NCBI RefSeq assembly: GCF_026738875.1
Contig: NZ_JAPQFJ010000010.1
Location: 91,780-155,779, forward strand
DNA length: 64,000 bases
Source: Clostridium brassicae
GTDB taxonomy: Bacteria; Bacillota; Clostridia; Clostridiales; Clostridiaceae
Reading direction: 5' to 3'
The notes under the pieces were generated by a model. The model saw only the letters and a list, made by a program, of their open reading frames with translations. It had not been told where the DNA came from and did no database searches. Below are positions 4,434-20,559 of the stretch, piece after piece; positions within the stretch are counted from its first letter, which is position 1; each line of letters starts with the position of its first letter. Made by a program: the position numbers and the translations under genes.

Positions 4434-5795
4434 TTATTCAGAGCACTTTTCTAAGTAATTTAATTCTTTTATATCTTTATATAAGAAATAGCCAGTTATT
4501 AAAGCTGCAGCAATATCTGCAATAGGCTGAGATAGCCAAAGTCCATCGAGCTTTAAAAATTTTGGTAAAATAATTATTATTGGTATTAAAATAATAACTT
4601 GTCTTAAAAAACTTAAAAATATGGATATTTTTGCTTTCCCAATGGCTTGAAAGTAATTAGAGGATACTATCTGATATCCTACAATAGGTAAGACTAATAA
4701 GTCGATTCTAAGACCACGAGATGTTAATTTTATAAGATCCATATCATTTTTACTAAATAAAGATATAAGAAGTTCAGGAAAAAGTTCTACTACTACATAT
4801 CCAATTGAAGCAATAGTAACACCAGATATTATAGCTAATTGCATAGCTTTTTTTACTCTTTTATAGGATTTAGCACCGTAATTATAGCCTAATATTGGTT
4901 GAACTCCTTGATTTATACCAAAAATAGGCATAAAAATAATCATAGATATACTTGATATTATACCCATAGCTGCAACAGCTATATCTCCACCATAAGTATA
5001 TAATCCTTTGTTATATAATACAGTTACTATACTAGCAGCTATTTGCATTGAAAAAGGAGAGAGTCCTATAGAAAATATATCAATGCAAGTTTTAAAATTT
5101 AAGTTTAGACAGGATTTTTTTATTTTTAAAATACTTCCACTGTTTTTATTAGTAAAATAATAAATTACTAAGACTGTATTCACTGTTTCAGATATAACCG
5201 TAGCTATAGCTGCTCCTTGAATGCCCATTTTAAAAACAAAGATAAATATAGGATCTAATACCATGTTTAAAAGGCCACCAACTATCATTGTTCGCATTGC
5301 TGTTCTAGGATTTCCTTCTGAACGTATTATATTATTAATTCCAAAACCTATATTTTGGAATATAGCTCCAGCTAGAATAATTAGAATATATTCTTTGGCG
5401 TAAGGAAGACTTTCTGTACTAGCACCAAAGGTTTTTAGAATTGGATTTATAAATATAATACCTATAACACATACAATACCTGAAATCAATATATCTAGTA
5501 TAACAGCTGTACCTAGAATATTTTCAGCAGCTTTTTTATTGTTTTCTCCTAATTTTATAGAAATAAGAGTGGAGGCACCAATTCCTACAAGCATTCCAAA
5601 AGCCATTATTGTAGTGGAAATTGGAAGAGTTATAGCAAGGCCAGCTAAAGCTGTTTGACCTACGCCTTGTCCAATGAAAATTCTATCCACTATATTATAT
5701 AATGCATTAACCATCATACCTACAATAGCAGGTATAGAGAATTTCCATAGTAATGTTGAGATTTTCGTATTGCCGAGTTCATTTGATTTACTCAT
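4434..5795 (-). CDS. MATE family efflux transporter
   Basis: A 453-residue, roughly 12-helix multidrug/toxin extrusion pump, expected to export drugs or metabolites using a Na+ or H+ gradient. FSIPAIVGMMVNALYNIVDR and FIGQGVGQTALAGLAI are the typical first helix pair, and a second related half begins near SIGLSPFSMQIAAS. I put the start at 5795, just after AAAGGAG; the in-frame ATG at 5813 lies upstream of that ribosome site. The Asn-rich and Tyr features place it in the DinF/NorM superfamily, with substrate unknown. It is transcribed alone. Confidence 0.88.
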   Translation of the reverse strand: MSKSNELGNTKISTLLWKFSIPAIVGMMVNALYNIVDRIFIGQGVGQTALAGLAITLPISTTIMAFGMLVGIGASTLISIKLGENNKKAAENILGTAVILDILISGIVCVIGIIFINPILKTFGASTESLPYAKEYILIILAGAIFQNIGFGINNIIRSEGNPRTAMRTMIVGGLLNMVLDPIFIFVFKMGIQGAAIATVISETVNTVLVIYYFTNKNSGSILKIKKSCLNLNFKTCIDIFSIGLSPFSMQIAASIVTVLYNKGLYTYGGDIAVAAMGIISSISMIIFMPIFGINQGVQPILGYNYGAKSYKRVKKAMQLAIISGVTIASIGYVVVELFPELLISLFSKNDMDLIKLTSRGLRIDLLVLPIVGYQIVSSNYFQAIGKAKISIFLSFLRQVIILIPIIIILPKFLKLDGLWLSQPIADIAAALITGYFLYKDIKELNYLEKCSE

Positions 5796-5892
5796 AAGAA
5801 TTTCTCCTTTCATCTAAAGTTATAGTATAACAAAGCGTTAAACCATAATTATATCATAAATCTTAAAAAAAATCCATTATTGGAAATTGTAT

Positions 5893-5919
5893 CATGTAAG
5901 TTATCTTTATAACTTCATG
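5893..5919. promoter_or_regulatory. small dyad upstream of the first MATE gene
   Basis: AAGTTAT (5898-5904) and ATAACTT (5909-5915) are inverted around CTTT and flanked on both sides by CATG. The dyad lies about 100 bases upstream of the MATE start and could be an operator. There is no other support. Confidence 0.3.
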
Positions 5920-6107
5920 TAAAAGATTAAAAAACATATTTTACATATTAAGGTGAGTAAACAATTCATATAAAATTATCTTTATTAAAATAGAATGGGA
6001 GTTATTAATGATAGTTATGAGATAAATTAAGGTTTGTTATTAGAATAAAATAAATATGAAAGGAAAATATAGTATTATAAAATCGCATAGAAAGGAGTTA
6101 AAAGTAG

Positions 6108-6761
6108 TTGTTTTTTTTAGAAAATATATCTACAAGATTCCCTACTCCATTAATTTCGGCTGCTTCTGTTATAGTTGGGTCATTAATAGGAGCTTCATGT
6201 AGTTGGATTACAACAACTTATGCAACAAGAAAAAATATAGAAACTGAAAATAAAATAGTAGAAGATAATAGAAGGTATGAATATAAAGATAAGATAAATA
6301 AAATATGTGAAAACGTAAATATAATACGATTGGATATATGTAATGCTTTATTTCAGAGTATAAGAACCTTAAAGTATTCAAATGAGGATTATTTAAATAA
6401 GTACCCTATATGTATTAATCCTAATTATTCAAAAGTAGTTGCTTCACTTACTAATAGGTTTGATTTAAAAGAAATGAGTTATATATATCAATTATATGGA
6501 ATCATAGAATCTTTGAATAAACATATTAAGGAATATTATTACTATGATAAAAATAAATATGAATTTATAAGAAAAGATTGTGAGTTGTTTTTAAAAAAAT
6601 TGTATGGAGAAAATTATAATAAGATATTAGATATAGACATTGAAAGGGCAACTTATGAGGAATTATATGATAATAAATTTACTAAAAAGGGCTATAGAGA
6701 TGTATTGAAAAAGCTAGATGAAAATAGGTGCTTTGAAATTTATGAAAAGCATGAACAATAA
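6108..6761 (+). CDS. membrane-anchored protein of unknown function
   Basis: A 217-residue protein with one hydrophobic N-terminal segment (about residues 15-38, ISAASVIVGSLIGASCSWIT), then a charged helical region (residues 45-85) and a Tyr/Lys/Asn-rich soluble part. The topology is a membrane anchor with a cytoplasmic helical domain. The start is TTG, ten bases after AAGGAG, so the true start could differ slightly. I recognise no family. It stands alone between a MATE gene on the other strand and the coat-like genes. Confidence 0.6.
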   Translation: MFFLENISTRFPTPLISAASVIVGSLIGASCSWITTTYATRKNIETENKIVEDNRRYEYKDKINKICENVNIIRLDICNALFQSIRTLKYSNEDYLNKYPICINPNYSKVVASLTNRFDLKEMSYIYQLYGIIESLNKHIKEYYYYDKNKYEFIRKDCELFLKKLYGENYNKILDIDIERATYEELYDNKFTKKGYRDVLKKLDENRCFEIYEKHEQ

Positions 6762-6834
6762 TTTGGAAGAATATAAAACTATATTTTGATACAAAATACT
6801 ATAGAATGATTTCAAGAAATGAGGAGGAGAAAAC

Positions 6835-7017
6835 ATGACACAATTAAATCAATTAGAGTTACAAAATCTAAGACACCTTGTAGGAGGACATCAAACTGTT
6901 GCTGCTAAATTAAATGATTATGCTAATCAATGTCAGGATGCTCAAGTTAAACAGATTTTTCAACAAGCAGCTACATCAGCTCAAAATACAACACAAAAAT
7001 TAATGGGATTTCTATAA
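6835..7017 (+). CDS. spore-coat-like protein, 60 residues
   Basis: A short Gln-rich helical protein (LELQNLRHLVGGHQTVAAKL, then NDYANQCQDAQVKQIFQQAA). NLRHLVGGH followed by a Gln-rich helix resembles small clostridial spore-coat-associated proteins found next to CotF-type genes. A GAGGAG site lies seven bases before the ATG. It is paired with the CotF-like gene 25 bases downstream, so the two products probably act together in the coat. The role is inferred from resemblance and context. Confidence 0.7.
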   Translation: MTQLNQLELQNLRHLVGGHQTVAAKLNDYANQCQDAQVKQIFQQAATSAQNTTQKLMGFL

Positions 7018-7042
7018 AATTAAAATGAAAGAAGGGTAAACT

Positions 7043-7291
7043 ATGCAAGAAAAAGAAATGGTAAATGATATATTGTCAACTGTTAATAGCAGTATTACTG
7101 GATATGGATCTATTATAGCTCAATGTGATAATCCACAATTAAGACAAACAATTCAAACATTAAGAGATGGAGACGAAAAATTCCAATATGATTTATATAA
7201 AATAGCATCTCAAAAAGGTTATTATAAACCAGCAGCACAAGCAACTGAACAAGAAATTCAACAAGTTAAATCACAATTAAGCCAAGGCTAG
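7043..7291 (+). CDS. CotF-family spore coat protein
   Basis: An 82-residue protein matching the CotF layout: an N-terminal helix MVNDILSTVNSSITGYGSII, a second helix with NPQLRQTIQTLRDGDEKFQYDLYK, and the QKGYYKPA segment typical of the family. CotF proteins are structural parts of the spore coat. It follows the 60-residue gene at 6835 closely and ends at a strong terminator, giving a two-gene unit. A mother-cell sigma promoter is expected, but I could not identify one clearly. Confidence 0.8.
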   Translation: MQEKEMVNDILSTVNSSITGYGSIIAQCDNPQLRQTIQTLRDGDEKFQYDLYKIASQKGYYKPAAQATEQEIQQVKSQLSQG

Positions 7292-7301
7292 ATAGTAAAA
7301 G

Positions 7302-7342
7302 AGGCTACTTCTATGTATACATAAAAAAGAAGTAGCCTTTTG
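7302..7342 (+). terminator. terminator after the coat gene pair
   Basis: AGGCTACTTCT (7302-7312) pairs perfectly with AGAAGTAGCCT (7328-7338), followed by TTTTG. Confidence 0.9.
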
Positions 7343-7450
7343 TAATTATTATAAAGGTATATAAACAAGAAATAAAATAAATACTAAAAATTATAAAGAA
7401 AATCATTATAAAAAAATAGGTTATTAATACTTATAGAAAGGATTAAATTT

Positions 7451-7648
7451 ATGAGACACCCTTATATAAAAGAAGGAAATAAAATATATGAATCTAAAGA
7501 AGTAGAAATAGCAAGAGAATGTGAACTTGAAAATGTAATAGATGAGGTTCCTAATGTGACGAAAAAATATAATGCTAAGATAAATAATATACAACATAAA
7601 TATGGTCAAGACAATGAAAGTAAAGAGGTTATTGGGCATTTTGAATAA
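7451..7648 (+). CDS. small hypothetical protein, 65 residues
   Basis: A hydrophilic, mostly charged frame (MRHPYIKEGNKIYESKEVEI...ESKEVIGHFE) with an AAAGGAT ribosome site and its own terminator 13 bases later. No motif or membrane segment is seen. The overlapping minus-strand frame is a Phe/Ile/Tyr-rich shadow of this one. Reality is supported by the tight fit between the ribosome site and the terminator; function is unknown. Confidence 0.55.
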   Translation: MRHPYIKEGNKIYESKEVEIARECELENVIDEVPNVTKKYNAKINNIQHKYGQDNESKEVIGHFE

Positions 7649-7660
7649 AAAACAAATTTT

Positions 7661-7708
7661 AATGTAATAAAGCATACTTGGATTAAACTAAGTATGCTTT
7701 ATTACATT
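7661..7708. terminator. long bidirectional terminator
   Basis: A 19-bp perfect stem (7661-7679 with 7690-7708) separates the 65-residue gene from the convergent dehydrogenase gene. A and T tracts on both sides allow use from either strand. Confidence 0.88.
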
Positions 7709-7751
7709 GAATAATTGATTATATACTATTTATTTTTGGAGGAAAATATAT

Positions 7752-8606
7752 TTAACTACTAGTAATACGTCCCCCATTTACATGTATAATCTGACCGTTA
7801 ATATAAGAGGAATCTTCAGATGCTAAAAAAACATAAGCTCCTGCTAACTCACAAGGTTGACCAGCTCTACCCATAGGAGTATTATGACCAAATTCTGATA
7901 CTTTTTCTTTTGAAAAACTAGAAGGAATAAGTGGAGTCCAAATAGGCCCTGGAGCAACACCATTTACCCTGATTCCGGAGTTAATTAAATTTAAAGACAA
8001 TGAACGAGTAAAAGATACAATTGCCCCTTTAGTAGAAGAATAGTCAATTAAAGTTTCATTTCCTTCATAGGCAGTAATAGAAGTTGTATTTATTATACTG
8101 CCTCCATTTTTCATAAGAGGTACTACTGCTTTGGTTAAATAAAACATTGAAAAAAAATTGGTTTTAAAAGTAATATTAAGTTGTTCAGACGTAATATCCA
8201 TAATGCTATTTTGAGGATATTGTACGCCTGCATTGTTAACTAATATATCTATAGATCCCATTGAGTTTACAGTATCAGTTACTACTTTATTACAAAAAGC
8301 TTCATCGCCTATATCACCAGGAATTAAGACACACTTTCTACCTTTTTCTTCAATAATAGATTTAGTTTCTTCTGCATCACAGTGTTCATTAAAGTAAGAT
8401 ATAACAACGTCTGCTCCTTCAATGGCAAAAGCAATAGCTACTGCTTTACCTATACCACTGTCTCCGCCTGTTATTAAAGCAACTTTATTTAATAATTTAT
8501 TACTGCCTTTATAATTAGTATTACTAAACATAGGTTTAGGATTCATTAAAGCCTCAAGTCCAGGTTGAGTGTCTTGATGTTGAGGCTGAAAATTTTTTGG
8601 GTACAT
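7752..8606 (-). CDS. short-chain dehydrogenase, GS39/YhdF-like
   Basis: A 284-residue NAD(P)-dependent oxidoreductase of the classical SDR family. After a 40-residue extension rich in Pro/Gln (MYPKNFQPQHQDTQPGLEAL) come the Rossmann motif TGGDSGIG, the NNAG motif, the active-site YSSTK and the PGPIWTP loop. The N-terminal extension and overall sequence match Bacillus general stress protein 39 (YdaD/YhdF) relatives, sometimes annotated as glucose or ribitol dehydrogenases. The real substrate is unknown. It stands alone, and an AAGGAGG site precedes the start. Confidence 0.88.
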   Translation of the reverse strand: MYPKNFQPQHQDTQPGLEALMNPKPMFSNTNYKGSNKLLNKVALITGGDSGIGKAVAIAFAIEGADVVISYFNEHCDAEETKSIIEEKGRKCVLIPGDIGDEAFCNKVVTDTVNSMGSIDILVNNAGVQYPQNSIMDITSEQLNITFKTNFFSMFYLTKAVVPLMKNGGSIINTTSITAYEGNETLIDYSSTKGAIVSFTRSLSLNLINSGIRVNGVAPGPIWTPLIPSSFSKEKVSEFGHNTPMGRAGQPCELAGAYVFLASEDSSYINGQIIHVNGGRITSS

Positions 8607-8907
8607 TTTAAAACCTCCTTAAAACAACGTATATTTATTTTGTTTACTTATGTTACTTTTTATTCAATAGAATTATCTTAGGGTATGCCTACGTCATGGG
8701 TTACTGCCATCTTTTGTAAAGTTAAAATAAAAATTCGACATAAAGTGAATAAGTTTATTAATGCCATAATTATAATGTTTATGTAATAGATATATTTAGA
8801 CAAAAATTAAATCTCATTTACATATAAAATAATAATTGGTATAATATAGGATATGTATAAAAATGTAGCATTTAATCTAAAGTAGTTAAAAAGGGGAGAA
8901 TGATATT
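8607..8907. other. divergent intergenic region
   Basis: This lies between divergent genes. Bases 8679-8748 are less AT-rich than their surroundings and include CCTACGTCATGGGTTACTGC, but hold no open frame I can support. The right part carries a TATAAT-like site near 8840 and a GGGGAG ribosome site before 8908. Confidence 0.4.
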
Positions 8908-11900
8908 ATGTATTTACCTGAACATAAGGATAGAGATTCCCTCAATGAGTTTATTTCTTCTAAAAAACCCATGGAAATAGAAACATTTCTTCAAATAGCT
9001 ATCAATATAACACAGATAATAGGCGAATTTCATAAAAATAATATAATCTATAAGTATATAAATCCCCATAATATTATTATTGATGTAAGTACCAAAGAGG
9101 TTAAATTTTTAGATACAAAAGATATATCAATAAATAGAACTGAAAATCTTCCTTATATGTCACCAGAACAAACAGGAAGAATGGGGAAAAAGATAGATTT
9201 TAGAACAGATTTTTATTCTTTAGGTGTAACGTTTTATGAAATGCTTACAGGCAGGCTTCCTGTGCAGGGTAAAAATGAAATAGAGCTAACTTATAGCCAT
9301 ATTGCAAAGGAACCTATTTATCCTAATGTTATAAATGAAGAAATTCCATATGTGATATCCCACATTGTAATGAAACTTTTATCTAAGGATCCAGAAGACA
9401 GATATAAGAACTGTTTTGGGATTAGAAATGACTTATTAAAATGTATGGTTGACTTGGAAGAAAAAGGATTTGTTGATAACTTTCCATTAGGTAAAAAAGA
9501 TATAGATGATAAGTTTAGTTTTTCTGAAAAAATATATGGTAGAGATAAAGAATTAAAGGAAATATTAAGGGTATATGAAGGCACTAGATCAGGAAATAGT
9601 AGCTGCGTTCTAATATGTGGAGGAGCAGGTATAGGAAAATCTACTTTAATGAAAGAAGTTAAAAGAAATGTAGTAGATGAAGGTGGTATATTTATTTCGG
9701 GAAAATGTATGCAATATGATAACTCTAATCCGTATTCTCCCATAATACAAGTTGCCACTAAATTAGTTAGGCATATATTAGTAAAAGGTGAGGAAGAGAT
9801 AAGAGATATAAAGGATGATATTTTAAATATCATTGGTAATAATGGACAAATAATTGTTGATTTCATTCCTGAGCTAGAATATATTATAGGAAAGCAGACT
9901 GAATCTCCGAGATATGGAAATTTAGAGTTTGAAAATAGTTTTAATGAAATACTTTTAAGGTTAGTAAATATTTTATTAAAAAAAGACTACAACATAGTTT
10001 TCTTTTTAGATGATTTACAGTGGATTGACTCAGCATCTTTAAAATTTATGAAGATGTTTATAAAATACATAGTAAACAAAAGAATTTTATTAATATGTGC
10101 TTACAGAGAAAGTGAAGATATTTACAAGAATTACCCAATAATTAATCTTTCTAAAGAATTGGAAAATAGTCATTATGATATAACATATATAAGTATGAAG
10201 CCCCTCGGTACAAGGGAGGTAAATAATTTAATTTGTGATACTTTAAATTGTGATAAATATTCATCTATGCTTTTAGCAAAACTAATTACTTATAAGACAA
10301 GTGGAAATCCATTTTTTATAAAAATATTTTTAGAAAATATGCTTAATGAACATATTCTAGAGTTTGATTATGAAAATGGAAAATGGACATGGGATATAAA
10401 CAAAATTTTAAAGATAAAGGTAGATGAAAATTCGCTAGATTTACTTATAAAAAAAATAAAAAATCTTCCACAGAATACAATAGAAATTTTAAAATTAGCA
10501 TCATGTATAGGAGTAGAATTTGACTTAAAAATTGTATCTTATTGTAATGACAGACCAATTTATCAAAATACTATCGATATACTTGCTGCTATAAGAATGG
10601 GGATAATATCTCCAGTTAGTAAAGATTTTAGTAGTTTTTCTAAAGATAATACTATAAGTCATATAAACAAATTTATAAATAAGTATATGTTTTGTCATGA
10701 TCATATTCATGAACAATTTTATTCTATGATAAAAAAAGAAGAAAAAAAGACTTTTCATTTTAAAATAGGAAATGTTTTATTTAATAATTTTTCTGATAAT
10801 CAAATGGAGATTAATATTTTTGATATTGTAAATCAGCTTAATCAAGCTCATGAATTAGTGAAATATGAAAATAAAATATATGATTTAGTAAAACTTAATC
10901 TAGTTGCAGGTAAAAAAGCATATGCTTCAGGGGCTTATAGTTTAGCATTAAAATATTTAAAAATTAGCTCTAACTTATTAAATGATGAAAGTTGGGAAAC
11001 TCATTATAATTTAACTTATAAAGTTTGGTTGACATTTGCTAAATATCAATGTCTTAATGGAGACTTTAAAGTAGGGGAAAAACTTTTTAATGTTATTTTA
11101 GATAACGCAAAGACGAAAAAAGACAAGGCAACTATATATGACATGAGGATTACCTTATATTCTTATTGTGGAAAATATAAGCAAGCTATAGAAAATGGAA
11201 TTTTTGCTTTAAATTTATATGGTATAGATATTCCTATACATCCTAGTAAAAAACATATAAATTTACAATTTATGAAAATAAGAATAAGTTCAAGGGGTAA
11301 AGAGGAAAGAATATTTAATAAGAAAGATAATATAAATGAAGAAAAAAAACAGATAAAAGAAATATTTATGCACTTAAAGTGTCCAGCTATGATTTTTGAC
11401 AAAAATTTATTTTATCTAATTACTTTAAAAGAAATTAATTTGATTTTAAAATATGGAGCATATGAAAGTGATGTAAGAGCATATATAGATTATGCTGTGT
11501 TTATTAATTTATACTTTGACGAATATGAAAAAGCATATAAGTTTGGCAAAAAAGCTTTGGAAGTTTATAAAGATGTTAAAAGTGTTGATTTTTATAAGGC
11601 AGAAGCTAGATTTGCAATCTTTGTTGCTCCTTGGATAGAGGGAATAGATTCTAGCATTGAGTGCATGAAGAAAAGTTATAAAAACCTTTTGAACTCAGGA
11701 GAGATGATTCAAGTTATTCATTTGCTGAATTCACTTGTTGGACTTTTATTTTTAAGAGGAGATACTTTAGAAAGTGTAAAGAGTAATTGTGAACAATATA
11801 TAAAATTAAGTCAAAATATAAAATTTAATCACATAGGTCATGGAATAGTTACAATAAATCAACTATTAGATAATTTAACAAGTAAAACAGGTAATAGATA

Positions 11901-13983
11901 TAGTTTAATATCTGGTGATTATAGTGAAGATATGCAATCTATGTATATAAGTTCATTAACTGGAACCGGAGGTTATTATACTTATAAGTTATTTATAAAT
12001 TATTTTTATGATAACGTAAAAGAAACTAAGACTCTTTTAAAGAATGTTGAAGGCGAGTTGGAATTTTACAAAGGAAGTTTTATTGAAGGATTAGGATGTA
12101 TTTATAGTACTCTATCTATGATCGAGTTATGCAAAGAAGTTAACAAAGGTCAGAAGAAAAAATTTTGGAAAAAGATTAATTCGAATTTACAAAAAATAAA
12201 AAAATGGTCTGATGTCTCTCCAATGGATTATAAAAGTTATTATTTATTAATTAAAGCTCAGATTTATTCAATAAATCATAACTATTCGGATGCGGAACAG
12301 TTTTTTTATAAGTCTATGAGAAGCGCAGCTAAGAATGAATCTTTCCTAAATATAGGCATTATTTGTGAGAAGCTTGGTGATCTTTACAAGAGTATGGGGG
12401 ATGAAAAATTATTTGAAGTATATATTATTCAAGCCTATAAGTGTTATGAGAGATGGGGAGCAATTGAAAAGCTAAAACAATTGAGAGAAAAATGTCCTAA
12501 TGCTTTTTGGGAAGAAGATGAAAAAAATAAAGATAATGCTTCTTTAAATAATAGTGCTGAAGATAGAATCGCTTGTACTACTACTGAAATAGATAATGAA
12601 AAGATAGATTTTTTATCTATAGTAAAAGCCTCTCAAGCTATTTCTGGAGAAATAGTACTTGAAGAACTTTTGGAAAAATTAATGAAAATATTAATTCAAA
12701 ATGCAGGTGCTCAAAGAGGATGTTTGATTTTGAGAAGAGAAAATGACTTATTTATTGAAATAGAAGGAGATATTAACAAGATTTACTCGATGGTCTCGAA
12801 ACATGTTAATATAGATATTTTTAGTAATATACCTAAGTTAGTAATTAATTACGTTGCAAGAACTAAGAAAAACGTGGTTTTAGAAGATGCATCTAAGCAT
12901 AATATGTTCATGCATGACTCATATATATTAAAAAATAATATAAAGTCAGTTTTGTGTTCTCCAATAATGAATAAAGGTAAATTTATAGGAATTATATATT
13001 TAGAAAATAATTTTTCAACAGATGTATTTACTAAACAAAGGTTAAATACTGTAAATATGTTGTCTTCTCAAGCAGCTATATCTATAGATAATGCATATAT
13101 GTATAAAACTATAAAAGAATTTAATGAGCAGCTTGAAAGAAAAGTCGAAGAAAGAACAAAATCATTAAATGAAACTATGAGATATGAAGAATTAAGAACT
13201 GAATTCTTTGCTAACATATCTCATGAATTAAGGACTCCACTTAATGTAATTTTTGGAGGACAACAAATGCTTGAATTATTGATAAAGAACAATATGCCTA
13301 TGCAAAACAGTGATAAAATCGAAAAATATATGAGTACTATGAAGCAAAATTGCTATAGGCTTGTTAGACTGATAAACAATTTAATTGATATCACAAAAAT
13401 AGATGCAGGTTATTTTCAAGTAAGCTTAAAAAATAGAAATATTGTCGATATTGTTGAATCTATAACTTTATCTGTAGCAGAATATATAGAGAATAATGGA
13501 ATAAACTTAGTATTTGATACTGATGTAGAAGAGAAATTAATAGCTTGTGATCCAGATAAAATAGAGAGAATAATGCTTAATCTTTTATCTAATGCATTAA
13601 AGTTTACAGAAAAGGGAGGAAATATAGAAGTAAACATGTATGACAAAGGAAACAAAATAGTAATCTCTGTAAAAGATGATGGCATTGGTATACCTGAAGA
13701 AAAACAAAACACAATTTTTGATAGATTTATCCAAGTAGATAAGTCGTTATCACGAAATAGAGAAGGAAGTGGTATAGGTCTATCTATAGTTAAATCTCTT
13801 GTTGAGATGCATGGAGGCAAAATCAGTCTTTTAAGTGAATGCGGAAAAGGGACTGAGTTTATAATAGAACTTCCAAATGTACAAGTTAAAGAAAAAGAAG
13901 AGGATACTAATAAAGATAGCTATTTAGCATCTAATAAGGTAGAAAGGATTAAAATAGAATTTTCAGATATATATTCTAATTAG
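8908..13983 (+). CDS. giant hybrid sensor: pseudokinase, AAA ATPase, GAF and histidine kinase
   Basis: A 1,691-residue cytoplasmic signalling protein. Residues 1-200 match the C-lobe of a Ser/Thr kinase (MSPEQTGRMG, DFYSLGVTFYEMLTGRLP), but the N-lobe is absent and the HRD loop reads YKY. Residues 205-480 are a STAND/AAA ATPase: GRDKEL near 212, Walker A GGAGIGKST with K244, Walker B LDDLQW near 368. Residues 620-1205 are helical repeats, 1234-1398 a GAF domain, 1400-1430 a coiled coil. The histidine kinase has SHELRTP with H1439, an N box (NLLSNALKF) and G boxes (DDGIGIP, GSGIGLS). No response regulator is adjacent. It may phosphorylate a remote regulator under control of the ATPase and GAF parts. 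Confidence 0.9.
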   Translation: MYLPEHKDRDSLNEFISSKKPMEIETFLQIAINITQIIGEFHKNNIIYKYINPHNIIIDVSTKEVKFLDTKDISINRTENLPYMSPEQTGRMGKKIDFRTDFYSLGVTFYEMLTGRLPVQGKNEIELTYSHIAKEPIYPNVINEEIPYVISHIVMKLLSKDPEDRYKNCFGIRNDLLKCMVDLEEKGFVDNFPLGKKDIDDKFSFSEKIYGRDKELKEILRVYEGTRSGNSSCVLICGGAGIGKSTLMKEVKRNVVDEGGIFISGKCMQYDNSNPYSPIIQVATKLVRHILVKGEEEIRDIKDDILNIIGNNGQIIVDFIPELEYIIGKQTESPRYGNLEFENSFNEILLRLVNILLKKDYNIVFFLDDLQWIDSASLKFMKMFIKYIVNKRILLICAYRESEDIYKNYPIINLSKELENSHYDITYISMKPLGTREVNNLICDTLNCDKYSSMLLAKLITYKTSGNPFFIKIFLENMLNEHILEFDYENGKWTWDINKILKIKVDENSLDLLIKKIKNLPQNTIEILKLASCIGVEFDLKIVSYCNDRPIYQNTIDILAAIRMGIISPVSKDFSSFSKDNTISHINKFINKYMFCHDHIHEQFYSMIKKEEKKTFHFKIGNVLFNNFSDNQMEINIFDIVNQLNQAHELVKYENKIYDLVKLNLVAGKKAYASGAYSLALKYLKISSNLLNDESWETHYNLTYKVWLTFAKYQCLNGDFKVGEKLFNVILDNAKTKKDKATIYDMRITLYSYCGKYKQAIENGIFALNLYGIDIPIHPSKKHINLQFMKIRISSRGKEERIFNKKDNINEEKKQIKEIFMHLKCPAMIFDKNLFYLITLKEINLILKYGAYESDVRAYIDYAVFINLYFDEYEKAYKFGKKALEVYKDVKSVDFYKAEARFAIFVAPWIEGIDSSIECMKKSYKNLLNSGEMIQVIHLLNSLVGLLFLRGDTLESVKSNCEQYIKLSQNIKFNHIGHGIVTINQLLDNLTSKTGNRYSLISGDYSEDMQSMYISSLTGTGGYYTYKLFINYFYDNVKETKTLLKNVEGELEFYKGSFIEGLGCIYSTLSMIELCKEVNKGQKKKFWKKINSNLQKIKKWSDVSPMDYKSYYLLIKAQIYSINHNYSDAEQFFYKSMRSAAKNESFLNIGIICEKLGDLYKSMGDEKLFEVYIIQAYKCYERWGAIEKLKQLREKCPNAFWEEDEKNKDNASLNNSAEDRIACTTTEIDNEKIDFLSIVKASQAISGEIVLEELLEKLMKILIQNAGAQRGCLILRRENDLFIEIEGDINKIYSMVSKHVNIDIFSNIPKLVINYVARTKKNVVLEDASKHNMFMHDSYILKNNIKSVLCSPIMNKGKFIGIIYLENNFSTDVFTKQRLNTVNMLSSQAAISIDNAYMYKTIKEFNEQLERKVEERTKSLNETMRYEELRTEFFANISHELRTPLNVIFGGQQMLELLIKNNMPMQNSDKIEKYMSTMKQNCYRLVRLINNLIDITKIDAGYFQVSLKNRNIVDIVESITLSVAEYIENNGINLVFDTDVEEKLIACDPDKIERIMLNLLSNALKFTEKGGNIEVNMYDKGNKIVISVKDDGIGIPEEKQNTIFDRFIQVDKSLSRNREGSGIGLSIVKSLVEMHGGKISLLSECGKGTEFIIELPNVQVKEKEEDTNKDSYLASNKVERIKIEFSDIYSN

Positions 13984-14075
13984 ATATGTTATATACTTTG
14001 CGAACTGTATAGCTACATGCAATTTTCTCAATTAAAAGTAGTTTTTAAGATTATATATTAAAATAGATTACCTAT

Positions 14076-14119
14076 CAAAACCAAAATTTTAAATATAAGT
14101 TACTATTTTGGTTTTGTTC
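14076..14119 (+). terminator. possible terminator after the giant sensor gene
   Basis: CAAAACCAAAAT (14076-14087) pairs with ATTTTGGTTTTG (14104-14115), 12 bp, followed by only TTCT. The rest of 13984-14292 shows no supported gene. Confidence 0.6.
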
Positions 14120-14292
14120 TAGATTGTGCAATTGCTTGTAATTTAAGAATAATGAGGACACTAATATCATAATTTGTATAAAGGAATTTTTATCTGATCA
14201 CTCACTACCAGAATTAATACTTCAATCATAAATGGAGAGATAAGTGGTGGTATGATTATTGATAAACTTATTCATACAAAGAGGTGAAGTTA

Positions 14293-14631
14293 GTGTCTAA
14301 TTTTATATCAAGTAGTATATATAGTTTTTTAGTTGCTTTTGGAGTTATATTGGGAGGAAGTTTTTTTGGAGGGATAGGAGCATTAATAAATAATCATCCA
14401 CCACTTAAAACTATGATAGATTTAGCAAATTCTATAAAAATATGGGCAGTAGCAACAGCATTAGGGGGGACATTCTCATCATTTCAATTAATAGAAGAAG
14501 GGCTTTTTAGAGGGCAAATAACTTCTCTTTTAAAACAGATAATATACATATTAGCTTCGCTAATAGGGGCAAATTTAGGTGTTAGGGTTATTAAATTGAT
14601 CCAAAAGTGTGGGGACATATGGATAAGATGA
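14293..14631 (+). CDS. ytrH: sporulation membrane protein YtrH
   Basis: A 112-residue protein with three hydrophobic segments. The N-terminal SSSIYSFLVAFGVILGGSFF and the Gly-rich turn that follows match the YtrH family, as does a final helix ending in IKLIQKCG. In Bacillus, ytrH and ytrI are expressed in the mother cell under sigma E and are needed for efficient sporulation. I choose the GTG at 14293, six bases after GAGGTG; the GTG at 14284 is inside that ribosome site. The gene overlaps ytrI by 13 bases, implying coupled translation. Confidence 0.85.
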   Translation: MSNFISSSIYSFLVAFGVILGGSFFGGIGALINNHPPLKTMIDLANSIKIWAVATALGGTFSSFQLIEEGLFRGQITSLLKQIIYILASLIGANLGVRVIKLIQKCGDIWIR

Positions 14632-15098
14632 GAAATAAGCATAAGTACTCTTTGTTTTTTATTCTTGGAGTTTTAATAGGGGCTATGATAGGTACAATAG
14701 TTATAAATATTTTAGTTAGCTATAGAATAGATAGTTATATAAAGGAGATTAAAAGTTTAAGAAAAGTTATAGAAGAAAAGGACACTAGGTTAGAAAAATT
14801 ACAGCAAAATATAAATAATAAGAAAATAATAGTAAATGATATTCAGGTAGAAATTAAATATGAAGATGATAAAACAGAAGATGACATAGTTAAAATTACT
14901 TTAGAAAAACATATTAAGAATAAATTCAAATGTATGCTAGGAAAAGAAGTTAAAAATGTTGATGGAGAGATGTTAGTAGAAGTTATAGATAAAAGAATTA
15001 TGAAGATAGATGGAAAGGAATATCAGATTAAGGTTAAAAGAATTATGATATCTCAAGTGATAAAATTTTGGATAGAAATTAAAGTAATAAAAGAATAA
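14619..15098 (+). CDS. ytrI: sporulation membrane protein YtrI-like
   Basis: A 159-residue protein with one N-terminal membrane helix (LFFILGVLIGAMIGTIVINI), a coiled-coil stretch (KSLRKVIEEKDTRLEKLQQN) and a C-terminal beta-rich domain. That is the YtrI layout, and it directly follows and overlaps ytrH. The start at ATG 14619 follows GGGGA; ATG 14628 is an alternative. It should act with YtrH in the mother-cell membrane during sporulation. After its stop codon the same frame stays open for 62 further codons of unrelated-looking sequence. Confidence 0.75.
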   Translation: MDKMRNKHKYSLFFILGVLIGAMIGTIVINILVSYRIDSYIKEIKSLRKVIEEKDTRLEKLQQNINNKKIIVNDIQVEIKYEDDKTEDDIVKITLEKHIKNKFKCMLGKEVKNVDGEMLVEVIDKRIMKIDGKEYQIKVKRIMISQVIKFWIEIKVIKE

Positions 15099-15448
15099 TA
15101 CTATGATAGAGTAAAAGAGGTTCCCTCATGTATATCTAAAGAAAGATTTGATATGCTTATTAAGTTAGAAGAAAATATATATAATCCTAACATGAAATCA
15201 ATAGGAATAGGATGCGTTCATGAACCACCTATCGCAAAGGAGCATTTAAATGGTAGTTTGGGAGTATTTATAGTAACAGGTAAATAAGTCTATTAGGTAA
15301 CTGGTGTGATCCAGTTAATGGATGATATTATTAGCAAAATTAATAATTCCTTTTGGACCAGCGACCCCCTTAAATATTTTAAATGCACATGAAATATTTT
15401 ATACAAAGAACATTAATAAACTTGTGAAAGAAGGAATAAATAGCAAAT
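15099..15448 (+). pseudogene. gene wreckage, unidentified
   Basis: Directly after ytrI, two open pieces read like protein but lack starts. Bases 15099-15287 carry 62 codons with SCISKERFDMLIKLEENIYN and KSIGIGCVHEPPIA. A second piece in another frame, roughly 15320-15467, reads LLAKLIIPFGPATPLNILNA then HEIFYTKNINKLVKEGI. Stops and frame changes separate them. I cannot name the source genes. They look like decayed fragments rather than regulatory DNA. Confidence 0.5.
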
Positions 15449-15658
15449 TTGTTGCTAAAAGAAATTAAAAATAGTAGTTCTAATAAAATAAAGGTTGAAA
15501 TATTTGAATTTAAAACAGGAAACTTATATTTTAATCAAGATTTATCAAATCATTCTCTACTTATTGAAGTTGGAAATAATAAGTCTAGTGATGATGATAT
15601 TGAAAAGTGTACGAATGTACTAGTTTCAGCATTAAAAGCTATTTATATTAAAAATTAA
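15449..15658 (+). pseudogene. spoIIP C-terminal fragment
   Basis: About 69 codons whose product has the ending of SpoIIP: YFNQDLSNHSLLIEVGNNKS followed by DDDIEKCTNVLVSALKAI, corresponding to the RYNQDL...ALLIEVG...T..EA segment of the amidase/endopeptidase that drives engulfment. The catalytic core of SpoIIP, about 200 residues upstream, is absent. The only starts are TTG codons without a ribosome site, so this is read as a remnant. A functional spoIIP must lie elsewhere. Confidence 0.65.
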
Positions 15659-15701
15659 TTAGTATTAATATGAGTAGAAATTGGATAAATAAAAAAGTAA
15701 G

Positions 15702-15736
15702 AATGGAATTTTGCTAAGCAAAATTCCATTTTTGGG
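15702..15736 (+). terminator. intrinsic terminator
   Basis: A 13-bp perfect stem AATGGAATTTTGC / GCAAAATTCCATT (15702-15730) on a TAA loop, followed by TTTTTGGG. Confidence 0.85.
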
Positions 15737-15774
15737 TCTTGAAATATTTTGTAGGTGTGATAATATTTATAAAT

Positions 15775-15912
15775 ATATAAATTTATCCGATGTCTAACCA
15801 TCCTAATACTCTAAAGTGGGAACAAAGAATGGCATGATTCTGGATAATGTTTTCTAAGCTTCAACTAGGGTTTAAAATTCCATCTGAAGCCAAGAAATCT
15901 ATTTATAGGGCA
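15775..15912. repeat. dispersed repeat, copy A
   Basis: The sequence from TTTATCCGATGTCTAACCAT to GAAGCCAAGAAATCTATTT shares blocks with copies at 27442 and 59393. It lies in the leader of the aspartate kinase gene. GCTTCA and TGAAGC within it can pair, but this pair is not kept in the copy at 59393. It resembles decayed intergenic repeat DNA more than a riboswitch. Confidence 0.55.
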
Positions 15913-15937
15913 ACATATATATGGGGGGAGAAGAAAA

Positions 15938-17251
15938 ATGAATGACATTATTGTAGCCAAATTTGGTGGCAGTTCGCTTGCTGATGCTAACCAGTTTCAA
16001 AAGGTAAAAAAGATAGTTTTAGGTGATGAAAGAAGAAGGTATATTGTACCATCAGCACCTGGAAAAAGGCATGATAAAGATTATAAAATTACAGATTTAT
16101 TTTATTTATGTCATGCTCATGTTCAGCAAGGAATTTCTTTCGATGAAGTATTTAAAATCATTGAAGAAAGATATAAACAAATAGCAAGTGAGTTAAATGT
16201 AACCTTAGATATAGGGGTGTATTTAAGGGAAGTAAAAAGAAAAATTGCCGAGGGGGCAACAGCAGACTATACTGCTAGTAGAGGAGAATACTTAAATGGA
16301 TTAATCCTAGCAGATTTTTTAGGAGTAGAGTTTATTGATGCTTCAGAGGCTATATTATTTAGCAGATATGGGTATCTTGATTCAGAGGGTACTAAAAAAG
16401 CAATAAAAGATAAATTGAAAAATGTTAAAAAGGCTGTTATCCCTGGATTTTATGGAGCTATGCCTAATGGAGAGATAAAAACTTTTTCAAGAGGAGGCTC
16501 TGATATTACAGGATCACTTATAGCTCGTGATATGGAAGCTAGTCTTTATGAAAATTGGACAGATGTTTCAGGATTTTTAATGGCAGATCCTAGAATAGTT
16601 GATAATCCAAAACCAATTGAAAAAATTTCTTATAAAGAGCTAAGAGAACTTGCTTATATGGGAGCTACAGTTCTTCATGAAGAAGCAATTTTCCCTGCAA
16701 GAGAGGGAGGTATTCCAATCAATATAAAGAATACAAATGCTCCTCGAGATAGAGGAACAATTATTGTAAAAGATAATGGAGATAAGGATTTAGGAAATAT
16801 TACTGGGATAGCAGGAAGAAAAGATTTTACTGTAATAGCTATAGAAAAAGCTTTTATGAATGCAGAAATAGGATTTGGAAGAAAAGTTCTTTCAGTATTA
16901 GAGACTTATGGAGTTTCATTTGAAAATATGCCTTCAGGAATAGATACTATATCTATAGTCGTTGAAGATTCTCAAATCGAAGGTAAATTAGATAAAGTAA
17001 TAGAAGAGATAAAAAGACAATGTAATCCAGATGCTATACAGATAATTCCTAATATGGCTCTTATAGCAACAGTAGGTAGAGGTATGGCTAGAACTGTAGG
17101 TACATCACAAAAGATATTTACTTCTCTTGCAAAGAATAACGTAAATGTAAGAATGATAGACCAAGGATCTAGCGAGATGAATATAATAATAGGTGTAGAA
17201 GCTAAGGATTTTGAAAAAGCAATAAATGCTATTTATCATGCTTTTGCATAA
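15938..17251 (+). CDS. aspartate kinase
   Basis: Phosphorylates L-aspartate at the head of the lysine, threonine and methionine pathways. The N-terminal KFGGSSLAD (residues 8-16) binds ATP and aspartate, TFSRGGSDITGSLIA is the second kinase signature, and ENWTDVSGFLMADPR follows. Residues from about 305 hold two ACT domains, the usual site of feedback control by lysine or threonine. The length of 437 fits the monofunctional clostridial enzyme. A GGGGGGAG ribosome site precedes the ATG. No lysine riboswitch is visible upstream. Confidence 0.95.
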   Translation: MNDIIVAKFGGSSLADANQFQKVKKIVLGDERRRYIVPSAPGKRHDKDYKITDLFYLCHAHVQQGISFDEVFKIIEERYKQIASELNVTLDIGVYLREVKRKIAEGATADYTASRGEYLNGLILADFLGVEFIDASEAILFSRYGYLDSEGTKKAIKDKLKNVKKAVIPGFYGAMPNGEIKTFSRGGSDITGSLIARDMEASLYENWTDVSGFLMADPRIVDNPKPIEKISYKELRELAYMGATVLHEEAIFPAREGGIPINIKNTNAPRDRGTIIVKDNGDKDLGNITGIAGRKDFTVIAIEKAFMNAEIGFGRKVLSVLETYGVSFENMPSGIDTISIVVEDSQIEGKLDKVIEEIKRQCNPDAIQIIPNMALIATVGRGMARTVGTSQKIFTSLAKNNVNVRMIDQGSSEMNIIIGVEAKDFEKAINAIYHAFA

Positions 17252-17284
17252 ATACGATAAAATATTTAATTTAAGTTAAATGCT

Positions 17285-17334
17285 AAAGAAACGAGTGGAA
17301 GATTTGATTTTTCCATTTGTTTCTTTATTTTTAT
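17285..17334 (+). terminator. terminator after aspartate kinase
   Basis: A 16-bp stem (17285-17300 with 17311-17326) including two G-U pairs, followed by ATTTTTAT. Confidence 0.85.
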
Positions 17335-17449
17335 CTAATAACTAAACAAAGTTATTATTTTAAGGTAAAATTAATATGATTAATGGAAATGACAATGGTA
17401 TAATTGTGGTAATATATTAAGGAAAATCAATGGCTTTAGGGGGATTTAA

Positions 17450-19279
17450 ATGAGAAAAATAATAAAGTTTTTAATCTCAATGTGTGTTTTAAGTTTAGTA
17501 TTGGTATGCAATGTTTATGCTAAAGAGGAATTAAAAATTGATAGTTGGGATATAAAATCTAATGTTTTAGAAAACGGAGATTTAGTTATAAATGAAGATA
17601 TAAGTTTTAGATTTTCAGATAAATTTAATGGAGTATTTAGAGATATAAAAATAAAGAATACATCTAAGGTTTCAGATATGAAAATCTATGAAAAAGTTAA
17701 TGGAAAAGAAATTGAGTTTAAGCAAGTAGAAAAAGGAAGTAATGGGGATAATGGAGTTTATGAAATTAAATATCCTAGTAAAGACTATGCCTCTATAAAA
17801 ATATTTTCGCCATCAAGGAATCAAGTTAAAACTTTTACTTTAAAATATAAAATATTAAATGAAAGTACTAAATACAAAGATACTGGAGAATTGTTTTATA
17901 AGTTTATAGGAGAAGAGAATAAAACACCAATAGACAAATTGAATATAAATATAAGTCTTCCAAAACCAGCTTTAAAGGATAAAGTAAAGATTTTTGCACA
18001 TGGTCCTTTAAATGGTCAAATAAACTTTTCAGAAAAAGGATCTATAAATTTACAAGTAGATAACGTAAATTCTAAAAAATTTGTTGCGCCAAGGATACTC
18101 TTTCCAGTGGAATATATAAATAGATCGACAAATATAGTTAAGGAAAATGCTTATTCTAGGATTATGGATGAGGAGTTAAGTTATGCAAGTAGTGTTAAGA
18201 AAAAAATAGAGAATTCTAAAAAAAGAATGAGTGCTGCAAATTATGGATCTTTTGCTTTTATAGGAATAAGCTTGTTAATCACTTTTATTCTTTGTATAAA
18301 ATTTAGAAGAAAACAAAACGGTAATATTGAAAATATTTATGGAATGATACCAGAAGATTGTACTCCAGCTGTTGCAAGTGTTATATATTCACATTATTTA
18401 GGAAGCAAAGATATAATTGCCACTATATTAGATTTGAGTAGAAAAGGTTATTTAAATCTTGAAGAAGTGGAAGAAAATGAGGAATTGATAACCCAAAAAG
18501 AAAGCAAAGTTAAAAAACAAAAAAAGGATAAAAACTACAAGATAATAAATAGTGGATATATAGGGGATAACTTATTGGAACATGAAAAGTTCTTTATTGA
18601 CTGGCTTATAAATAAGATTGGAAATGGTTTTTTTGTAACATTGAATATGATACGTGAATATAGTAAAAAAAACACAGGGAAATTTACTGGTGATTATAAA
18701 AAGTGGGAAGAACTTGTTAGAAAATATGTTAAAGAAAATAAATATTATGATAATAAAGCAAAGCAAACAGGAATTCTATTGATCTTATTTAGCTTTTTTC
18801 AAGTACTACTGGGAATTTTGTTTATTGCATTAGGAAGTAATTATGGAATAGCTGTTTTGATTATAGGAATAGTATTTATAATATGGAGTATAGCTTTAAT
18901 GTACAGGAAGAGTGATTATGGCTATGTTCAATATAAAAAATGGGCAAAATTCAAAGAAGAGATTAAAAAAGTTAAAGAATATAATATACAGAAGGAATTT
19001 TCAGAAAATTATATTGATGAATGTTTAATTTATGGAATGTCTCTAGGGCTATCTCAAAAGGAAATAGATAAATTTAAACCTTATATAATGTCATCTTCAG
19101 TTTATAGTAATAGTTATTTATATTGGTATTTCTTAAATTCAGATTCTAAAAATAATAGCTTTAATAAAAGTATAGATTCTGCATTTAATTCAGCTGTACC
19201 TTCAACTGGAAGTGGAGGAGGATTTAGCGGAGGAGGAGCAAGTGGTGCTGGCGGCGGAGGCGGTGCCGGTGGTTTTTAA
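17450..19279 (+). CDS. DUF2207 membrane protein with Gly-rich tail
   Basis: A 609-residue envelope protein. Residues 1-24 are a signal peptide (IIKFLISMCVLSLVLVCNVY). A DUF2207 extracytoplasmic domain follows up to about residue 225. A membrane helix lies near residues 265-285, a cytoplasmic winged-helix-like region with YLGSKDIIATILDLSRKGYL follows, then two more helices near 440-490. The end is SGGGFSGGG...GGGGGAGGF. This matches widespread DUF2207/YP_ Gly-tailed proteins whose biochemical role is unknown. A ribosome site of the GGGGG type precedes the ATG. It is transcribed alone. Confidence 0.88.
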   Translation: MRKIIKFLISMCVLSLVLVCNVYAKEELKIDSWDIKSNVLENGDLVINEDISFRFSDKFNGVFRDIKIKNTSKVSDMKIYEKVNGKEIEFKQVEKGSNGDNGVYEIKYPSKDYASIKIFSPSRNQVKTFTLKYKILNESTKYKDTGELFYKFIGEENKTPIDKLNINISLPKPALKDKVKIFAHGPLNGQINFSEKGSINLQVDNVNSKKFVAPRILFPVEYINRSTNIVKENAYSRIMDEELSYASSVKKKIENSKKRMSAANYGSFAFIGISLLITFILCIKFRRKQNGNIENIYGMIPEDCTPAVASVIYSHYLGSKDIIATILDLSRKGYLNLEEVEENEELITQKESKVKKQKKDKNYKIINSGYIGDNLLEHEKFFIDWLINKIGNGFFVTLNMIREYSKKNTGKFTGDYKKWEELVRKYVKENKYYDNKAKQTGILLILFSFFQVLLGILFIALGSNYGIAVLIIGIVFIIWSIALMYRKSDYGYVQYKKWAKFKEEIKKVKEYNIQKEFSENYIDECLIYGMSLGLSQKEIDKFKPYIMSSSVYSNSYLYWYFLNSDSKNNSFNKSIDSAFNSAVPSTGSGGGFSGGGASGAGGGGGAGGF

Positions 19280-19310
19280 ACTAAGTTGTGGTTTAGCAGT
19301 TTTTATTTTT
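19277..19310 (+). terminator. weak terminator candidate
   Basis: TAAACTA and TGGTTTA form a short stem with one G-U pair, followed after GCAG by a T-rich run. It is weak, but correctly placed just after the DUF2207 stop codon. Confidence 0.35.
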
Positions 19311-19433
19311 TATAATTCACAAAAAACTTAAAAATAAGACTGAAATTTATATTTGGGACATAATCACATGTGTTATATTAAGCCATTATCATATATCAAT
19401 CAGAGAAATAAAACTAAAATTAGAAAAATTATC

Positions 19434-19462
19434 TTGACATTTGAAAAATACAAGTCTATAAT
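19434..19462 (+). promoter_or_regulatory. sigma-A promoter of the methionine operon
   Basis: A perfect TTGACA (19434-19439), a 17-base spacer and a perfect TATAAT (19457-19462). Transcription should start near 19469, about 20 bases before the riboswitch. Confidence 0.9.
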
Positions 19463-19489
19463 GATATGCATAGTTAAAAATGAATACAG

Positions 19490-19640
19490 CTTATCAAGAG
19501 TGGTGGAGGGACTGGCCCGATGAAACCCGGCAACCGTTATAAACTTTATTGTTTATAAAATGGTGCTAAATCCTGCAGCTTTATGCTGGAAGATAAGGGT
19601 AAACGGGACTTTTAAGACCTAAGGTTATCCTTAGGTCTTT
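19490..19640 (+). promoter_or_regulatory. SAM-I (S-box) riboswitch with terminator
   Basis: The aptamer covers 19490-19599. CTTATC (P1) and GATAAG close it, and the invariant core AGAGTGGTGGAGGGACTGGC, CCGATGAAACCCGGCAACC and GGTGCTAAATCC is intact. The expression platform is a terminator hairpin AAGACCTAAGG / CCTTAGGTCTT (19614-19639) followed by TATTTTTTT. With SAM bound, the terminator forms and the downstream transport genes are shut off. This ties the operon to methionine/SAM supply. Confidence 0.97.
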
Positions 19641-19752
19641 ATTTTTTTACCCTAATAGGAATGACAAAAGGAGGAATGAGATATAAATTATCAATTAGGG
19701 CTATACTTTAAGAATTTTAAATGAAAATTAAATAAAAAGGGGGAAACGAAGA

Positions 19753-20559
19753 GTGAAAAGGGCAGTTTTCTGTTTTATAAGTATTATTTGTATTTTTGGC
19801 TTAATAGGATGTAGTAGTAAAGTAAGCGGAGAAAAGCAAGAAGATAAAAAAGTTATTAAAATAGGAATTACTCCTAATCCTTTTAAGGAAATTGTTGAAG
19901 AAATAAAACCTTTGGTTAAGGAAAAAGGATATGAGTTAGAAGTAAAAGAATTTACAGATTATATGACTCCAAATACTGCTCTTGTAGATAAGGAGTTAGA
20001 TGTTAATTTTTATCAGCATATACCGTTTTTAAACAAATTTAACAATGATAAACATGCAGATTTGACTTATGCATCAAAGGTGTTTATAGCGCCTATAGGA
20101 ATATACTCAAAAAAAATTAAGGATATAAAGGAATTGAAAGAAAATTCAGAAATAGGAATTCCTAACGATCCAACTAATGAAGCAAGAGCTTTAAAATTGC
20201 TTGCTAGTGCAGGTCTTATAAAAGTAAAAGATGGAGATTTTATAACAATTGTAGATATAACTGAAAATCCCAAAAAACTTAACATAAAAGAGTTAGATGC
20301 GGCGCAAATACCTAGAACATTAGATCAATTAGATATAGGGGTAATAAATACAAATTTCGCATTGGCAGCAAAATTGAATCCAGCAAAAGATTCTATTTAC
20401 AAAGAAGCAGAGGATTCACCATATTCAAATATTTTAGCAGTTAGAAAAGAAGATAAAGATAAACCTTATGTAAAAGCACTATCAGAAGTATTGACTTCTA
20501 AGGAATTTAAGAAATTTATAGAAGATAAATACAAAGGTGTTTTAATACCTTCTTTCTAA
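19753..20559 (+). CDS. metQ: methionine-binding lipoprotein (first copy)
   Basis: A 268-residue substrate-binding lipoprotein of the MetNIQ importer. The signal peptide ends in a lipobox (FGLIGC), anchoring it to the outer face of the membrane. NlpA/MetQ motifs are IGITPNPFKEI, FYQHIPFLN, GIPNDPTNEARALKLL and ELDAAQIPR. The start is GTG with a GGGGG-type site. It is the first gene after the SAM riboswitch and precedes metN by 32 bases. It shares about half its residues with the second copy at 22274. Confidence 0.93.
   Translation: MKRAVFCFISIICIFGLIGCSSKVSGEKQEDKKVIKIGITPNPFKEIVEEIKPLVKEKGYELEVKEFTDYMTPNTALVDKELDVNFYQHIPFLNKFNNDKHADLTYASKVFIAPIGIYSKKIKDIKELKENSEIGIPNDPTNEARALKLLASAGLIKVKDGDFITIVDITENPKKLNIKELDAAQIPRTLDQLDIGVINTNFALAAKLNPAKDSIYKEAEDSPYSNILAVRKEDKDKPYVKALSEVLTSKEFKKFIEDKYKGVLIPSF

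Follow-up and report, generated by a model that had tools for sequence, protein, structure and literature searches.

A giant clostridial histidine kinase that carries only the C-lobe of a Ser/Thr kinase domain

The window analysed here, a stretch of 64,000 nucleotides, contains a gene at 8908-13983 (+ strand; assigned from the open reading frame list, Pfam and orthologues) that encodes a half-kinase, an AAA ATPase, a GAF domain and a histidine kinase in one protein of 1691 amino acids. The kinase part is a C-lobe only, a pseudokinase half-domain of residues 1-205 (8908-9522, +; Pfam, AF2, Foldseek and dN/dS). We favor, at a probability of about 0.72, the reading that this C-lobe, with its YKY catalytic loop and short activation loop, would serve the ATPase as a docking or gating module without catalysis of its own, such that signal leaves the protein only via His1439. 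The initial annotation had proposed that the kinase part is kept as a docking or regulatory module; that it cannot be a usual Ser/Thr kinase and is retained is well supported, while the docking or regulatory role stays a proposal.

The ribosome-binding site GGGGAG noted in the initial annotation was read from the sequence at 8893-8898 (+), 9 nt upstream of the ATG. Matches that each exceed their own Pfam cut-off define the domain layout. Downstream of the Pkinase match lies an AAA_16 ATPase domain (residues 209-385; 9532-10062, +), which retains a P-loop at G238-K244 and D368-D369. A GAF domain (residues 1251-1393; 12658-13086, +) precedes the HisKA phosphoacceptor domain (residues 1430-1501; 13195-13410, +), in which alignment places H1439 at 13222-13224, and the HATPase_c catalytic domain follows (residues 1548-1657; 13549-13878, +). 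Pfam gives no match in the middle region, residues 640-1230, which we guess to be TPR-like. The Pkinase match covers residues 5-166 and reaches profile positions 78-252 of 263 only. We take the positions below 78 to represent beta1-beta5 and helix C, where the Gly-loop and the ATP lysine with its Glu partner would lie; all of these are absent here. Because the profile is entered only at position 78, the protein begins near the kinase hinge.

The catalytic loop of the half-kinase reads IIYKYINPHNI, in which Y48-K49-Y50 (9049-9057, +) replaces HKD. When the protein was aligned with its eleven closest homologues (P0001-P0011), M1, Y48, Y50 and N55 were invariant in 12 of 12 sequences. The change had initially been described as HRD to YKY; the YKY is confirmed, but the usual motif among relatives is HKD. 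Because relatives usually read HKD, the Lys was probably inherited, with the flanking H and D each turning to Tyr. A census of 219 rows, comprising 218 listed homologues and the query, showed the catalytic Asp kept in 196, and all 12 rows of the decapitated form had Tyr at both the His and Asp positions together with the loop Asn. The activation segment (residues 56-84; 9073-9159, +) is also shortened, as N55 and S85 are 29 residues apart and the commonest spacing is 41, which leaves the loop of the decapitated proteins 12 residues below the usual length. The spacing from the loop Asn to SPEQ was 29 in all ten decapitated rows of alignment A2. A regular expression applied to the listed proteins likewise returned 29 in 10 of 10 decapitated proteins and 41 in 173 of 196 others. 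This count took in 206 of 218 proteins (P0002 and 11 others escaped it) and gave wrong values for spacings of roughly 100 and above. Loop shortening is rare elsewhere but is not unique to proteins without an N-lobe: P0188 has an N-lobe yet a spacing of 30, and P0151 has a spacing of about 34 by eye. The N-lobe is absent from L089, L092 and L026, which still show spacings of 40-41. Other C-lobe positions are maintained: P86, E87, D97, R165 and Y166 do not vary in 47 aligned rows, and D101 hardly does; E87 and R165 presumably form the usual C-lobe salt bridge, and D101 is presumably the helix-F Asp. The features that define an active kinase, namely a Gly-loop, a beta3 Lys and the HRD Asp, are all lacking. 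These motifs give good support to the view that the kinase part is incapable of ordinary Ser/Thr kinase activity.

We also examined whether the N-lobe is encoded upstream. No N-lobe sequence was found, by eye or by tblastn, in the intergenic region towards the divergent SDR gene (8607-8907), and inspection by eye of every frame of 8458-8907 revealed nothing N-lobe-like. At five loci, the three forward upstream frames contained, by eye, only the divergent SDR gene and non-coding sequence. Using 11 N-lobes as tblastn queries against 20 upstream stretches (11 from N-lobe-less loci and 9 from controls), we recovered the N-lobe at 9 of 9 control loci with E values of at most 4.6e-11, own matches left out. 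In the same search, 0 of the 11 N-lobe-less loci (the window and ten others) had an N-lobe upstream, the best E value being 0.21; the best for L027 was 0.84 and that for the window was 4.6. A hidden N-lobe joined by frameshift or alternative start is ruled out by the upstream frames and tblastn. An annotation artefact is ruled out for the clade, as the start M1 aligns in 12 of 12 proteins; the annotated starts of P0006 and P0010 add 24 and 30 residues, respectively, which do not resemble an N-lobe. Because the same start and the same two Tyr residues occur in 12 of 12 proteins and the form is intact in five of eight genomes of the genus, chance or an assembly slip is not the cause of the missing N-lobe. 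These results bear out what had been claimed from the window alone, namely that the N-lobe is missing and that 8607-8907 is not decayed N-lobe coding sequence. An unannotated N-lobe upstream, which the initial annotation had named as grounds for abandoning its reading, was thus looked for and did not appear at any of the 11 loci.

The decapitated form is a trait of a clade of Clostridium. A protein search over about 5.8 billion proteins, from which the best 120 of 7993 matches were listed, placed the eleven homologues P0001-P0011 (1671-1714 amino acids, 95-45% identity) among the matches listed, and those with names are all Clostridium. P0001 comes from Clostridium sp. MB40-C1, and the named carriers are C. 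ganghwense, Clostridium sp. ZS2-4, C. thermopalmarium and C. bovifaecis. Within the family, a model match at E <= 1e-200 occurred in 21 of 206 genomes, and every carrier of the decapitated form belonged to the genus of the window, where the form is intact in five of eight genomes and broken in a sixth (G139). In G138 and G141, of the same genus, a decapitated copy was not among the matches. Because the copy is broken in G139 and none was among the matches in G138 and G141, the gene is dispensable in these genomes. The C. bovifaecis orthologue (L023), the named locus for G139, is split into three open frames, and P0010 is an intact relative that shares the N-terminal region of the broken C. bovifaecis copy. 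Aligning homologues, as had been suggested as a check, showed the N-lobe absent and the catalytic Asp replaced in 12 of 12. Attributing the loss to "this copy" was too narrow, as it is a trait of the clade and at least one other N-lobe loss occurred in the family.

Sequence comparison and structure prediction describe a retained domain. In one pairwise comparison, with the 95%-identical orthologue L073, dN/dS was 0.064 over the whole protein; by part, it was 0.016 in the histidine kinase, 0.051 in residues 1-205 and 0.072 in the ATPase. The half-kinase part is 47-98% identical in nine decapitated relatives, and a manual count found 51 invariant residues within the first 205 across 12 proteins. 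That the half is under purifying selection, and is retained rather than decaying, is well supported by these comparisons. For residues 1-212, AF2 returned a pLDDT of 88 and a pTM of 0.87. The best Foldseek matches were mycobacterial PknB domains (top match 6i2p, E 7.5e-14, TM 0.72 by query length), and all 50 matches listed were, by title, protein kinases or kinase-homology domains. The half is predicted to fold on its own as a kinase C-lobe. The two-domain model of residues 1-440 reached a pTM of 0.51, with the linker at 201-207 poorly predicted, and therefore the seating of the half on the ATPase is not predicted, in that AF2 gave neither a fixed contact nor a fixed orientation for this pair.

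The ancestry of the half-kinase was traced in a tree built on the ATPase region (75 rows). The decapitated proteins form one clade with support of 100, and P0012 adjoins it with support of 89. P0012 has an N-lobe with its Lys, but an Asn in place of the catalytic Asp, and an order in which catalysis was lost before the lobe would fit, resting on this one sister row. The domain architecture does not need the decapitated form, since P0012, the nearest relative, has an N-lobe. The catalytic Asp changed 13 times on the tree; among 30 family matches, the motif is visible in 29, of which 22 lack the Asp. Judged by its domains and placement, the half-kinase descends from the ATPase-linked CP1/cbSTKIII dual kinases, a known family rich in pseudokinases, of which it represents a decapitated variant. 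Two further N-lobe-less loci from two genomes of genus g13, L089 and L092, nest among paralogues with intact kinases. The AU test rejects a common origin of this pair and the window clade (p 5.4e-6); it used the simpler LG+G4 model and 29 of the 75 rows, with the group chosen after the first tree. L086, in which Tyr stands for the His and Ser for the Asp and the loop spacing is 25, is not separable from the window clade (AU p 0.46) and could share its origin. Because L086 is inseparable, we claim only one clearly separate N-lobe loss, that of L089 and L092, as the trees indicate. The N-lobe is also absent from the frames of L026 and L027, which sit on long branches with unsure placement. Two candidates were not counted, since each may be a start or fragment artefact: P0105 nests with the N-lobe-bearing L091 and L100, and P0158 has only 994 amino acids.

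Related proteins vary in other ways. The catalytic Asp is absent in eight of eight loci with a readable motif that we place in the Bacillaceae from their genus names (L015-L019, L021, L022 and L029), where it is replaced in several different ways and more than 125 residues precede the motif; the letters read in place of the Asp in this comparison of family matches are A, N, S, V, T, E, H and Y. Besides the gene described here, the genome of the window has three other Pkinase places. It encodes a long paralogue, located at C3, whose kinase domain is complete and reads HLD. In the same genome, a protein of 280 amino acids (L004; G000:C23:71371-71967) matches Pkinase only from profile position 40 and reads YGSLNPAN at the catalytic loop; it is likely another pseudokinase with a cut N-lobe. 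Finally, L079-L082, L085, L088, L093 and L099 have the kinase-ATPase-GAF front and C-termini that are mostly like AMYxAKxxGKN, which we take to be the end of a diguanylate cyclase; the front thus seems to swap outputs.

The genomic neighborhood of the gene is conserved. The order of a divergent SDR gene, the giant gene, ytrH and a ytrI-like gene is kept in four named loci. The ytrH gene, at 14284-14631 (+; Pfam PF14034, E 6.3e-38; synteny), with GTG at 14293 as the likelier start by eye, adjoins the giant gene in six of six distinct loci examined (the window, L073 and the four named). The ytrI-like gene occupies 14607-15098 (+; synteny) and matches NF041479 only sub-threshold (E 2.6e-14). From their family names, we assume that YtrH and YtrI serve sporulation. 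The gap before ytrH measures 309 nt in the window (13984-14292), 274 nt in L073 and 62-85 nt in four other orthologue loci. By eye, an inverted repeat that is rich in AT and has T at its end lies near 14077-14117 in the extra stretch; a terminator scan that needs G-C pairs did not call it. No response regulator was seen by eye among the open reading frames of at least 100 amino acids in window positions 5000-20000, and the four named loci together held one receiver-like frame, about 6 kb away in L009 and beside its own sensor-like frame. The initial annotation had envisaged an orphan response regulator; a dedicated one was not found next to the gene in the loci examined. The C-terminal tail and the ytrH neighbor point rather to a shared target such as Spo0A.

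The motifs of the histidine kinase end are intact. H1439 does not vary among the 12 aligned proteins, and neither do what we take by name to be the histidine-kinase ATP-binding motifs. This conservation favors the earlier claim that output runs only via H1439, as a predicted function. Behind a variable linker, the protein ends in the conserved tail NKVERIKIEFSDIYSN (13933-13980, +; alignment and regular expression), the last residues of the clade reading approximately NK(I/V)ERIxIEFSDIYS and the peptide IEFSDIY lying at 13957-13974. This genome has 42 HisKA places. Coding sequence for EFSDIY occurs four times in it: in this gene, in the long paralogue, in a PAS histidine kinase with a frame of 592 amino acids, and at one place that has no sense open reading frame of at least 80 amino acids and is antisense to a permease-like frame. 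Among homologues of the PAS kinase (P0219-P0338, the best 120 of 4776), a regular expression found the motif as the C-terminal end of 117, and the other three have near variants; the linkers before the tail vary among them, but the tail does not. Of 218 listed kinase-ATPase relatives, 13 have the tail (P0001-P0012 and P0105).

We also compared the tail with the presence of Spo0A across the class. A DNA pattern for IEFSDIY, which admits some other residues at the Ser and was matched without regard to histidine-kinase ends, occurred in 71 of 393 genomes, and a reversed control pattern gave three matches among the 393. Spo0A_C was found in 318 of 393 genomes. Counted by hand, Spo0A matches were present in 70 of the 71 pattern-bearing genomes and in 248 of the 322 others (Fisher p 1.2e-6, which ignores kinship); the exception is G512. 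The letters EFSDIY were not found in the literature searched, mostly without subscription papers; the same literature also yielded nothing useful on MASE3 with sporulation or on a C-terminal tail with Spo0A. We tentatively propose, at somewhat under even odds, that Spo0A is the target and is reached through the tail. Another account is possible, if somewhat doubtful, in which a dedicated response regulator other than Spo0A is encoded elsewhere in the genome and the tail serves the kinase itself, for example in dimer or ATP-lid contacts. An intramolecular role would suit a tail common to kinases of many architectures, but a constant tail after a varying linker fits docking of a common partner, and the near-constant company of Spo0A argues against a dedicated regulator.

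Several accounts of the half-kinase compete with the docking or gating module. The C-lobe could be a structural cap that only keeps the N-terminus of the ATPase folded or soluble and passes on no signal. Conservation in the 47 rows falls mainly on the C-lobe fold core and AF2 leaves the orientation to the ATPase unfixed, as a cap would allow, but a bare cap would not obviously need the clade-specific Y48 and Y50, and selection on the half is about as strong as on the whole protein; we regard this account as unlikely. Far less credible is a remnant drifting towards loss by pseudogene-like decay. The repeated changes of the catalytic Asp in the family, N-lobes lost more than once and one broken orthologue would all accord with drift, but not with the low dN/dS of the half, its identity among nine decapitated relatives or its invariant residues. 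We give the least credence to a half that still phosphorylates Ser/Thr, through an unusual mechanism or with an N-lobe lent by another protein. WNG kinases are active without a Gly-loop, but they retain an N-lobe in altered shape and depend for activity on an HRD Asp, according to the accessible part of that report (PMC6442604). The three other Pkinase places in the genome could in principle supply a lobe; against this, the protein described here has lost the entire N-lobe, both the His and the Asp of HRD, and 12 activation-loop residues.

In the docking or gating module that we prefer, a ligand or partner would meet the open face around Y48/Y50 and N55. The state of the C-lobe would be sensed through the ATPase and middle region and relayed to the GAF domain and histidine kinase, with His1439 as the sole output. 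The recipient of the phosphate would be a response regulator that other kinases with the IEFSDIY tail also use, most plausibly Spo0A. More speculatively, and with considerable doubt, Clostridia may on more than one occasion have reduced a Ser/Thr kinase to a pseudokinase of one lobe and used it as the input module of STAND-type ATPase/histidine kinases acting on the sporulation switch, with the Tyr-Tyr loop as a new binding face and the IEFSDIY tail as a general docking tag of a Spo0A-directed network of orphan kinases. A lone C-lobe under selection with clade-specific residues suggests that half a kinase fold can serve signaling. The catalytic Asp was lost many times in the family, and so the steps from kinase to half-kinase can be compared. 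The tail offers a simple handle on the question of which clostridial orphan histidine kinases act on Spo0A.

Pseudokinases usually have both lobes, and a form without the N-lobe was not found in the literature searched, mostly without subscription papers. Fungal hybrid histidine kinases with a Ser/Thr kinase-related domain are assigned to group X. Those proteins resemble the one described here in placing a kinase-related domain within a histidine kinase, but they are hybrids with a receiver, and we set them beside it by description rather than by sequence, as far as the available portion of the source allows (PMC4965123). In the accessible part of PMC12599244, EssB/YukC and ActPs3 are bacterial pseudokinases with a reduced or deleted activation loop, as here, but neither is described there as a lone C-lobe, and the constraints on ActPs3 are said to be concentrated in the N-lobe. 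That source also treats CP1, whose kinases linked to COG3899 are pseudokinases in about 40% of cases (PMC12599244). From what the accessible text conveys, CP1/COG3899 (pseudo)kinases occur mainly in cyanobacteria and proteobacteria and have motif changes, and they likewise join a kinase domain to a predicted ATPase, often with GAF or PAS; as a further likeness, no transmembrane segments are reported for them, and the account as available does not mention N-lobe loss (PMC12599244). The protein described here probably shares the link to a COG3899 ATPase, judging from AAA_16 at 209-385 and nesting in the trees, and the frequent but not universal GAF or PAS domain, through GAF at 1251-1393. It differs in its occurrence in Clostridium, its absent N-lobe, its Tyr pair and its shortened loop. 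The bilobal kinase domain of CP1 is lacking, as the match is confined to profile positions 78-252 of 263, and hence we regard the protein as a descendant of the CP1 family and do not file it as a CP1 kinase. Dual Ser/Thr-histidine kinases are described in cyanobacteria as cbSTKIII, and proteins such as HstK/Alr2258 have the same order of Ser/Thr kinase, GAF and histidine kinase, in the available portion of PMC2176072. The C-terminal histidine kinase with at least one GAF domain between is present here, and the KD-type catalytic loop and DFS of cbSTKIII are seen in the intact relatives. Unlike the cyanobacterial proteins, which that portion describes with a full kinase domain and a KD loop (PMC2176072), the decapitated protein has neither and reads YKY. 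Its histidine-kinase core and tail align to the end of the MASE3_PAS_HK model (NF047874; 655/655) at 471.5 bits, below the cut-off of 560; the front differs, and the likeness is limited to the histidine-kinase end. Finally, the clostridial orphan histidine kinases that act on Spo0A have no adjacent cognate response regulator, according to the accessible text of PMC11210211, and the same arrangement is seen here.
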